Positions 50,773 to 54,075 of a stretch of 64,000 nt of DNA are shown here, piece by piece. The stretch's first letter is position 1; every line of letters begins with the position of its first letter. Source of the stretch: Malania oleifera (taxonomy: Eukaryota > Streptophyta > Magnoliopsida > Santalales > Ximeniaceae); assembly GCF_029873635.1 (NCBI RefSeq), contig NC_080417.1:30740214-30804213 (forward strand), given 5' to 3'. The notes below the pieces were generated by a model. The model was not told the origin of the DNA. It saw only the letters and a list, made by a program, of their open reading frames with translations, and ran no database searches. Position numbers and translations under genes: made by a program.

Positions 50773-51575
50773 AATTACAATAATATTTCAATAATATTAA
50801 TAATAATGTAGAAATAATATACTTATGTTTCTAATAATAATACACAAACAATGTAATAATATTACCAATAATAATGTGCAAATAATAAATACAATCCATA
50901 TAATAACCATATGCGTCAAATATATTAATATTTAAACAAATAATGTACTAATATTACCAATAATCATGTACAAATGGTATAACTTTAATGCTAACACAAT
51001 ATCTATAACGACAATACTAATAATAATATGCAAGCAACAGAATACTAATATTAATAAGATCGATGTGATAATAATACTAATATTATCAATATAATAATAG
51101 TATTAATAATAATATCTAATCAATAGTAATATTACTAATAATGGTATACAATGAGCGTAATAATAATATGACTAATAATAATGTACAAGCAATAAGAAAA
51201 TCCTAAACTATAAACACAAATCAATTAATGCCAACACCAAAAATATGAACTTGGAGATTAAAATCTTTTAGAACAAATGTAACAATATTAAAAATTCTAC
51301 GACAATACAACAATAACAACCAAAAACCTAAACATTTACATCAAATATTAAAATACCAACTACTACAATAATTCTACAATAAAAAGATTCAATATGTATA
51401 ACTAATATAACAAAAATTTGACCTGCAACAATAAAAATAATTTAATTAGTATCTCGACTACAACAAAAATATAATCATAGATACATATAAAACAAGTATT
51501 GGGAGATAAAACTCCGTGATAATGAAAAAAAATAAAAGAACCGGCATGTGTGTGTGCTGAGTGTATGGGTTTACA
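50773..51575. other. AT-rich, AAT-dominated non-coding sequence
   Basis: Scattered AATAAT runs, no open frame with any recognised similarity. Confidence 0.6.
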
Positions 51576-51731
51576 TGTTTTAGAGTTGTTAGTTTGTTAA
51601 TTGTTAGTTTTATTGTTAATTTGTTAGTTATTGATTCAGTTGTTTTTTTCATTTTATATACTAGTATAAAAAGCACTGTAAACTGATCTTCTTTTACCAA
51701 TTCCGGAATAATACAGTTTATTTATTTAACA

Positions 51732-51743
51732 TGGTATCAGAGC
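51732..51743 (+). promoter_or_regulatory. primer binding site of the gene-carrying retroelement
   Basis: TGGTATCAGAGC immediately after AATTTAACA-like LTR end; identical to the PBS at 8151-8162. Confidence 0.9.
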
Positions 51744-51821
51744 ATTCTCCGCTGCTGCTCTCCGTGGTTCTCTTCGTAGAGCTTCCTTCAATCGAGGTCT
51801 CATCCATGCTGCGATGAAGTT

Positions 51822-52210
51822 GTGCAAGAAATCGATCCCCGGAATGGAGATCGAGAGTACATAGACGTAGCGTCGCTGCCGATGCTCAACACCGATCTGG
51901 AAATCGACGGCAACTACGACATTCTAGAGAAGAGTCAGGCTCTTCCGGTTTGGCACCAGACATATGAGTTCTTGCAAGCTTTGAAGGCCAATCAGTTCCT
52001 CATCTTGTTCGACGAAACTAGTAGTGGTAAAACAACTCAGATCCGTCAGTTTGTTTTGGAAGTTGTTGATATAGATACGCCAGAAAAACGGAAGAAGATG
52101 ATGATTGCCTGCACTCAGCCTCATAGAGTGGCTGCAATGTCTGTTTTACGTCGAGTTGCTGAAGAGATGGATGTAAATATCGAGGAAGAAGTTGGATACA
52201 ACATTGTTAA
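51822..52210 (+). pseudogene. captured fragment of a DEAH-box pre-mRNA-splicing RNA helicase
   Basis: The frame reads NYDILEKSQALPVWHQTYEF, then LILFDETSSGKTTQIRQFVL, then ACTQPHRVAAMSVLRRVAEEMDV and EEVGYNI. This is the N-terminus and motifs I and Ia of the DEAH2/DEAH3 (Prp43-like) family. In that family motif I is GETGSGKT and Ia is TQPRRVAA; here they are DETSSGKT and TQPHRVAA, so key residues have changed. The fragment is intronless, stays open over about 125 codons, and ends abruptly at about 52210. It sits 90 bp after the PBS in the same orientation as the element. Most likely a copied mRNA piece, not a working helicase. Confidence 0.88.
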
Positions 52211-52432
52211 TATTACTTGGAACCTGACCTTCCGGCTACTTCTCCAGCTCCGGTGTCCTTACTATCTTAAATTTTTTTTTTTTATTTCTTTCTTCAATCT
52301 TTCTGTTTCTTTTTCACTTCTATGGCGAAACCTGGGCATTCCGCTTCTATAGCAAATGCTGATGGTTCTTAAAATTTTCTTCATTTCTTTCTTCAAGTTT
52401 TTATTACTTGGAAAAGTGCTGATGATTCTTTC

Positions 52433-52656
52433 TCCCATATTCTGCTCTGGAATTTTGGGAATTTTCTGTTCTGAATTTTTTTTTTCTCCCATATTCTGCT
52501 CTGGAATTTTGGGAATTTGCTGTGTGCTCCAAGTGTTCGAAAAAATGACACAAAGGAGTTGATGATTCACAATGGAACCTGAGTTTTCTATGGCATTTTG
52601 CTTCTATGACAATTTTGGGTTGTGCTCCAAGTGTTCGAAAGAATGACACAAAGGAG
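52433..52656. repeat. internal direct duplications within the gene-carrying element
   Basis: TCTCCCATATTCTGCTCTGG is at about 52431 and again at about 52485. GTGCTCCAAGTGTTCGAAAA is at about 52524 and 52622, continuing as AATGACACAAAGGAG in both. The parts are direct repeats separated by 54 and 98 bp. Confidence 0.88.
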
Positions 52657-52689
52657 CTGCTCGTGGCAGTGAAGCCACCATCGATCTGG

Positions 52690-53050
52690 TCTTGGTCGCC
52701 GGCGGTGAAGCTAGTAGTTACTGATGCGGCAAAGAAGAAGTCGACAGTAGCAACAAAAGCAAAGTCTGCAAAGGCATCGAATGAGACAAAGGCGAAGGCT
52801 CAGCCAAAACAAAGAAGGCCAAAGCTGCAGAAAACCAAAACCTGCAGCAAATCCAAAAGCTGTGGCAAAGCCAAAGACGAAGCCAAAGGACAAGCCGTTT
52901 AAAGCATTAAGAATCTCAACCAGGACTTAGCCGGGGAAAGAAAGTTGCAGCTCCGAAGCCTGCTGCAAAGAAAACACTGGCTAAGGCAACTTCTTCAATG
53001 AGTGCCAAGCCCAAGAGTGTGAAATCTAAAAAAAAAAAAAAAAATCTGTA
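52690..53050 (+). pseudogene. captured fragment resembling a linker histone H1 tail
   Basis: Across two or three frames it reads VTDAAKKKSTVATKAKSAKA, then KPKAVAKPK-type and KPKDKPFKALRISTRT, then after a stop GKKVAAPKPAAKKTLAKATSS and SAKPKSVKSKKKKK. The Lys/Ala/Pro-rich composition with VAAPKPAAKK matches the C-terminal tail of plant H1. There is no globular domain, at least one stop and frame changes. A 3'-UTR-like T-rich stretch follows up to the 3' LTR. The identification rests on composition and short motifs. Confidence 0.7.
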
Positions 53051-53320
53051 AATTTGCTGATTTTTGTGGTTGTATTTGGCGTTGCGTTATGTTTGTTTTT
53101 TTTTTTTTGGGCAAGATGGAGATGTTAAATCTTTGTTCCCATCTCTCTGGGGCGTATTAGAGTTGTTAGTTTGTTAATTATTAATTTTTTTGTTAATTTG
53201 TTAGTTATTGATTCAGTTGTATTTTTTATTTTATATTTTAGTATAAATACTAATATAAATAACACTGTAAACTGATCTTCTTTTACCAATTCCGGAATAA
53301 TACAGTTTATTAATTTAACA

Positions 53321-54075
53321 ATATGCCTGCTGTGTGCGTGAGTGTGTGCGCGTGCTGTATGTAACTGGCATGCAGGGGGCTTACCTGATGCTGCCGGAAT
53401 TTGGGGGAGAGGTGGCTGGTTCGCTGTAGGGGTTGTGAGGGCGTTGCAGCGACTGTTTGATCTGCTCGCGGTAGTGAGGGAGATTGGCTGAGGGCCAAAA
53501 CGGGGAGTGAGAGCTCGGAGGGATCGACCGTGGATGGTCTTGTGGTCGGACCTGCGGTGTGGTCTGTGGCTTGTGCTGAGTGATGGATTTTGAGGAGGAT
53601 GGCCGGAGATGGCGACGGCGTTGGTTGTTGGGCAGAGAACGGAGACACGTCAAGGCTGCTCCTGGGGTTGCCGAAACTGGGTTAAGACGAAGCAGGGAGG
53701 CGGCTACTGCTGTCGGAGAAGGGGCGATTGCCGGAGCTGCTATGTTTGAGGGACGACGACTCTGGGCTGGTGGCCGTGGCTTGGAGGTGGGGACGCCGAA
53801 GTGGAGATGTTGTGATGGACGATGCAGGTGGCCGGAGATGGTGGCGGATGTAAGGTTGGGAGTGAGGTGGCCAAAGGCGTGCGTGGAGGGGCTCCGCTGG
53901 GGCTGTGTTGTAGGGAAAGGGGGCGTTGATGAAGAGAGGGAGAGGAGAGTTTTTGGTGACAGCTGTGGGATGGAAGGTGGTTCAGGTTTTGTGGCGGGTC
54001 GGCGGCGGTTCTGTGAGAGAGATGGTGGTCGGGTTTGGCTTTTTTTGTCACGGGATGGAATGGAAGATGGGGAGA
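53321..54075. other. GC-rich block of unknown nature
   Basis: About 750 bp rich in GGCGG, GGCCGGAGATGG and GTGGTCGG-type strings, with long overlapping open frames on both strands and no recognised protein. Sequence on both sides of the retroelement is (TG)-rich, so the element interrupts this block's left edge. It may be an LTR-element leader; its base composition differs sharply from the neighbours. Confidence 0.45.

Follow-up and report, generated by a model that had tools for sequence, protein, structure and literature searches.

What is a short stretch of DNA that is bounded by LTR-like repeats and filled with pieces of host genes, and by what route did those pieces come together? The question is raised by a locus in the window, a stretch of 64,000 nucleotides from Malania oleifera (NC_080417.1, positions 30,740,214 to 30,804,213; contig C1 below). 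A first-pass annotation had described a small LTR retroelement with LTRs of about 160 bp, a primer-binding site after the 5' LTR and two captured host genes inside. Our analysis makes it very probable that positions 51578-53320, 1743 bp in all, are a non-autonomous element of the TRIM/Bs1 type, an LTR retroelement with an interior of host-gene pieces. Its features, all on the + strand, are as follows.

51573..51577, +: target-site duplication, 5' copy, ACATG, adjoining the LTR and matching 53321-53325 at four of five positions
51578..51731, +: 5' LTR, 154 bp, from self-alignment and relatives
51732..51743, +: primer-binding site TGGTATCAGAGC, with no gap after the 5' LTR, from the sequence
51740..51913, +: fragment of an NADPH:quinone-reductase-like gene (NQR, FMN-reductase fold), from donor alignment
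51913..52204, +: DEAH2/3-type (Prp43/DHX15 family) helicase fragment with motifs I and Ia, from donor exons and the PDB
52205..52425, +: DEAH-subfamily-specific T-rich spacer, 87-92% identical in the other five copies that have DEAH
52426..52690, +: module X, including two pairs of short repeats, common to H1-bearing subfamilies
52691..53083, +: linker-histone H1 C-terminal tail and part of the 3'UTR, with internal deletions (donor L044)
53143..53154, +: polypurine-tract position, CTCTCTGGGGCG in the window copy, G-rich and directly 5' of the 3' LTR
53155..53320, +: 3' LTR, 166 bp, from self-alignment and relatives
53321..53325, +: target-site duplication, 3' copy, ATATG, four of five positions as in the 5' copy

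The outline proposed earlier is borne out: the LTRs measure 154 and 166 bp, and the first is followed at 51732-51743 by TGGTATCAGAGC, which we take to be the complement of the 3' end of plant initiator Met-tRNA. The 5' LTR of the window copy starts with TTTTAG and ends with TTTAACA, while relatives mostly read TATTAG or TATTAA at the start. Canonical TG...CA ends are absent, the window LTRs having TT..CA and TA..CA and most of the relatives read having TA..CA; LTR starts of the form TGTTA were seen in L073 and L076. The purine tract is TCTTGAGGGGGCG in many relatives and degenerate in the window version. The two LTRs show 10 differences at 154 sites (K2P 0.068), equivalent to 2.6-4.9 million years at assumed substitution rates of 1.3e-8 to 7e-9. 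No retroelement protein family was found by Pfam in the four interior ORFs scanned, in line with the first-pass annotation, which had recognised no retroelement genes; together with the short LTRs and the length of 1743 bp, this is what is expected of a TRIM. Rfam gives no match within the window. Directly upstream of the element, at 50800-51500, lies an AT-rich tract of degenerate AATAAT-like repeats.

Target-site duplications were assessed by eye in 19 elements with both LTRs measured, including the window copy (W). They are perfect over 5 bp in 11 (L010, L014, L015, L016, L017, L021, L022, L036, L040, L041 and L042, that of L014 being CCCCC inside a C run), alike at four of five positions in five more (W, L009, L019, L023 and L026, the last only if its LTR end is taken as AACG), and absent from three (L018, L027 and L032). 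In five of the 19 (the window element, L016, L017, L019 and L022) the two LTRs of one element differ in length by 12-13 bp, and the longer may be either the 5' or the 3' one. By eye, what sets the two LTRs of the window copy apart resembles a short unit in tandem, close to a TATA-like stretch, and repeat slippage is a simple guess at the origin of such differences.

The genome searched comprises 1.49 Gb in 510 contigs. The element as DNA query has at least 67 matches in it, with 40 of 281 candidates scored, and many of them cover part of its length. One relative, at C4:95.63 Mb and thus on a different contig from the window, aligns over positions 5-1745 of 1745 at 86%; because it matches over the full length, the element is no chance assembly. 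Thirty-seven loci were fetched (L009-L045), two of them donor genes (L043 and L044) and 35 elements or element fragments; the latter, with the window copy, make up the 36 loci of our module map. Of these, 27 have an H1 piece, cut down to 74 bp in L035, and 15 have an NQR piece of 90 bp or more (W, L009-L013, L015, L028 and L036-L042). The DEAH piece is confined to six: W, L009, L010 (in part), L011, L012 and L028.

A 24-mer spanning the LTR end and primer-binding site, with one two-way letter, occurs in 37 places, and its reversed control in none. Ten of these 37 loci were sampled (L066-L069 and L071-L076), and eight have a second LTR-like copy within about 2.4 kb, which is in two parts in L074, whereas L067 and L069 showed none. 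Five (L066, L068, L071, L073 and L075) have two LTRs, a length of about 1.7-2.4 kb and a 5' part that differs from that of the window copy and is joined to the C3 module. Behind the family primer-binding site of L067 (C8:25230550-25233000), positions 400-663 resemble, in antisense, ribosomal protein S13 (Pfam E=3.5e-5, under the curated cut-off) and possibly come from a further donor.

Where do the pieces in the window copy come from? The first-pass annotation had proposed searching the genome for donors and for further copies, and both exist: besides the relative aligning at 86%, donors for NQR, DEAH and H1 lie on C9, C5 and C5, respectively. As the window is on C1, read-through of a neighbouring gene is unlikely. 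Two of these donors had been recognised before, DEAH and H1; the third, NQR, had been missed and lumped with the helicase, so that a helicase fragment given as 51822-52210 in fact starts at 51913 and is preceded by NQR at 51740-51913. The stretch 51754-51913 aligns at 91% to two donor exons, C9:91211247-91211304 and 91211513-91211613, which are joined at about 51811 with exact absence of the 209-bp GT..AG donor intron. A tandem paralogue of this donor lies at C9:91.200 Mb. A 2-bp insertion near 51855 shifts the NQR frame of the window copy. The Pfam FMN_red match, E=0.0091 in the window copy and 4.4e-5 (just under) in L036, stays below the cut-off in both, and between the L036 piece and Arabidopsis NQR identity is 57% over 61 residues.

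The helicase piece matches one donor exon (L046:8834-8961) at 91% and the next (L043:1575-1740) at 94%. The exons are joined at about 52039, and the 2115-bp GT..AG intron between them is exactly absent from the window copy, so that the helicase piece was rightly called intronless. In a PDB search its frame matches Prp43/DHX15, best at E=2.5e-21 over query residues 46-143. Two derived changes set the copies apart from the donor: ahead of Walker A, V-G has become F-D or F-N in all six DEAH copies, and in QFVLE(A/V) A has become V in the five long ones (W, L009, L011, L012 and L028). These shared derived changes argue for a single capture followed by amplification. In the NQR module tree the six group together with support of 0.81, while the H1 module tree scatters the four of them that have H1; support in these trees is weak.

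An H1-like tail at about 52690-53050 had also been correctly noticed, and 52691-53083 aligns, part of the 3'UTR included, to a linker-histone gene at C5:76.03 Mb (L044; Pfam Linker_histone E=1.4e-15) in three pieces at 88-95%. It lies within one donor exon, and includes a run of 17 A at 53028-53044 with donor sequence flanking it on both sides. The 102-bp GT..AG intron of the donor is absent from two less shortened relatives, L045 and L072. The latter (C5:108246550-108250550) has much of the H1 coding region, its intron removed, and is less truncated than the window copy. For the T-rich spacer we found no source: with 40 of 52 candidates scored, matches elsewhere are at most 81% identical, except for short ones of 53 bp (96-98%) and 42 bp (88%). 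That the spacer and module X together (52205-52690) lack a recognised source counts against the reading preferred below.

The same LTRs enclose other genes. In subfamily B1 (L016, L017 and L023, plus the mixed forms L013 and L015) we find a FIP37/WTAP-like piece. Six exons of its donor, spread over 13.5 kb at C13:28.318-28.332 Mb, are joined in L016, whose FIP37 stretch recurs in four more elements at 93-95%. Against Arabidopsis FIP37 the L016 piece shows 59% identity over 125 columns; neither a Pfam match to WTAP nor any match in the PDB was obtained with this piece. L018, of subfamily B2, has an antisense fragment of a gene whose relatives lie at C1:54.44, C3:72.26 and C5:18.19 Mb. Further occurrences of the stretch are at C8:59.477 and C2:149.285 Mb, and the other B2 matches lack it among the 40 of 59 candidates that were scored. 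In L018 the fragment runs on without a gap where the C1 relative has about 108 bp more, with splice letters that are not clean; judged from this alignment, the gap is probably an intron. Subfamily C (L036, L038-L042 and L063) combines NQR with a second piece, present at least in part, while L037 has only LTR and NQR in the stretch read. Where read for long enough, the second piece is a G-protein-gamma fragment with donor L064 (C12:58.595 Mb; Pfam G-gamma E=1.2e-6), with which a PDB search produced only three weak, irrelevant matches. At L064 (C12:58594500-58596600) the gamma tail is inverted with respect to the rest, while the element has both in one direction. Part of subfamilies C and D is possibly tetraspanin-like, although Pfam gave no support. 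Since Pfam scans of ORFs from the window and relatives gave no family above the curated cut-off, identities rest on donors and the PDB, and for NQR and FIP37 on the Arabidopsis proteins.

By what route, then, were these pieces acquired? The exact absence of the NQR and DEAH introns, and of the H1 intron in relatives, means that capture went through RNA. The G-gamma piece adds a further stage. Its donor holds a 181-bp segment, GTACGT...TAG (177-182 bp in the module map), and of six copies read four keep the segment, with intact ends in L040 and L041 and with the final AG altered to AA and TG in L039 and L042, while from L036 and L063 it is exactly absent. Matches start at the segment point (query 418-420) in 10 places, L039-L042 among them, and one match, at C2:7492526, runs across it. 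Because the donor-like state has the intron, its loss is derived; judged by these copies, the loss would fit splicing of element RNA before reverse transcription. Equally, since the piece at first kept its intron, not every capture was from spliced RNA, a point against the reading set out next.

The module map shows subfamilies sharing modules in differing combinations and orders. In particular, L013 and L015 combine NQR and the first segments of C with that half of B1 which holds FIP37 and H1. The case for exchange between subfamilies rests chiefly on such mixing; the module trees are in weak agreement. Passage through RNA, spread after capture and reuse of modules are thus features of the family. 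In the mechanism that we favour, host mRNAs would be packaged along with element RNA in particles of an autonomous partner, probably a Copia element; reverse transcriptase would change templates, from element RNA to mRNA and back, and so gain the gene pieces one by one; and later switching between RNAs of different subfamilies could re-sort the captured pieces, which may be filler between the signals that the element needs. For such a partner, ORF lists were inspected by eye and one ORF per locus was scanned with Pfam, and no gag or pol was found in the 10 sampled loci (of 37) over the 2.4-4 kb read. Against this reading also stand the L018 antisense fragment, unexplained by simple minus-strand template switching, and the imperfect target-site duplication and purine tract of the window copy. 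It is quite possible, and we suggest it tentatively, that the LTR family goes further and constitutes an RNA-level exon-shuffling system: at least six host genes (NQR, DEAH, H1, FIP37/WTAP, G-gamma and the source of the antisense fragment) would have yielded pieces in succession, subfamilies would have exchanged these modules by template switching, and new in-frame fusions such as NQR-DEAH would be the outcome.

That the retroelement gained its gene pieces at the DNA level, by recombination or as processed pseudogenes inserted between the LTRs, seems improbable. The G-gamma intron kept in several copies does call for at least one capture from unspliced RNA or DNA, and the A run in the window H1 piece points the same way, though donor 3'UTR sequence comes after it. 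Arrival as DNA sits badly, however, with NQR, DEAH, H1 (in L045 and L072) and FIP37 (in L016) being exactly without donor introns and with the pieces being internal fragments, that of H1 ending within the 3'UTR and not at a tail.

Less probable still is that the chimera now serves the host, its NQR-DEAH fusion frame making a protein or a regulatory RNA. In L012 NQR and DEAH are indeed fused in frame in one stretch of 198 codons, and the helicase frame is open in L012, in L028 and, over 190 codons, in the window copy, as the first-pass annotation had observed. That openness means little, however. The NQR frame is shifted in W, L010 and L028, putting another frame ahead of DEAH; Walker A is altered in the window copy; and stops interrupt the DEAH frame in three of six copies, two in L009 and one each in L010 and L011. 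Between five copies (the truncated L010 excluded) dN/dS is 0.38-1.53, at 3-10 synonymous changes per pair, showing no sign of constraint. Values of 0.34-0.70 against the donor include the donor's own branch, which is under constraint. Selection on the helicase frame is accordingly unsupported.

Capture of the Pack-MULE or Helitron type with incidental LTR-like repeats, a process explaining much gene capture in rice and maize (PMC3726574), is hardly credible here, as LTR pairs, primer-binding site, purine tract and 5-bp target-site duplications recur over many loci and intron loss points to RNA. The LTR and duplication structure, exact intron loss and internal fragments likewise dispose of a plain processed pseudogene and of segmental duplication; for the latter the first-pass annotation had looked to LTRs restricted to this locus and donor similarity including introns, while in fact LTRs of this family are found at other loci and the window copy has neither the NQR nor the DEAH intron.

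The window element is of a known kind. The first-pass annotation had likened it to Bs1 of maize, an LTR retroelement with fragments of three host genes (PMC13317346), and the comparison is apt: here too, intronless pieces of three host genes lie between LTRs. The donors differ, those of Bs1 being a proton ATPase, a xylan endohydrolase and a beta-1,3-glucanase (PMC13317346). Unlike in the published account of Bs1, one LTR family here comprises several subfamilies with different donor sets and modules in common. The soybean TRIM GmaRetroS15 is similarly small, with two LTRs, 5-bp target-site duplications, no coding capacity, exon-only pieces of three genes and several copies (Gao et al. 2016, PMC4717578). 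Gene-carrying TRIMs in that paper measure 1172-1449 bp against the 1743 bp of the window element and, more than 77% of described TRIMs being below 1 kb, ours is large for a TRIM; section 13 of the paper describes neither module exchange between subfamilies nor a donor intron kept and then lost (PMC4717578). New sequence gained by template switching between packaged RNAs has precedents in wheat Veju TRIMs and BARE-2, the source being an unknown sequence for Veju and another retroelement for BARE-2, as opposed to several host genes here (PMC13317346). A survey counts 672 genes captured by LTR elements in rice and 1343 in sorghum (PMC3726574). Our literature search, with subscription journals mostly outside its coverage, found no report of this LTR family or donor set, nor an account of any single LTR family with as many donors and shared modules. 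The new part is the multi-donor, module-sharing LTR family, which displays with unusual clarity how pieces are mixed and how many donors contribute.

Acquisition of host genes by LTR elements has mostly been inferred from a few cases such as Bs1. In M. oleifera the donors, relatives with less truncation and numerous derived copies coexist in a single genome, which makes the order of capture, breakpoints, intron loss and module exchange directly testable. The family also demonstrates that a TRIM-type element can gather a number of unrelated exons and multiply them together. If the family is indeed an exon-shuffling system, its history would be readable copy by copy, down to a captured intron spliced out between one generation and another.
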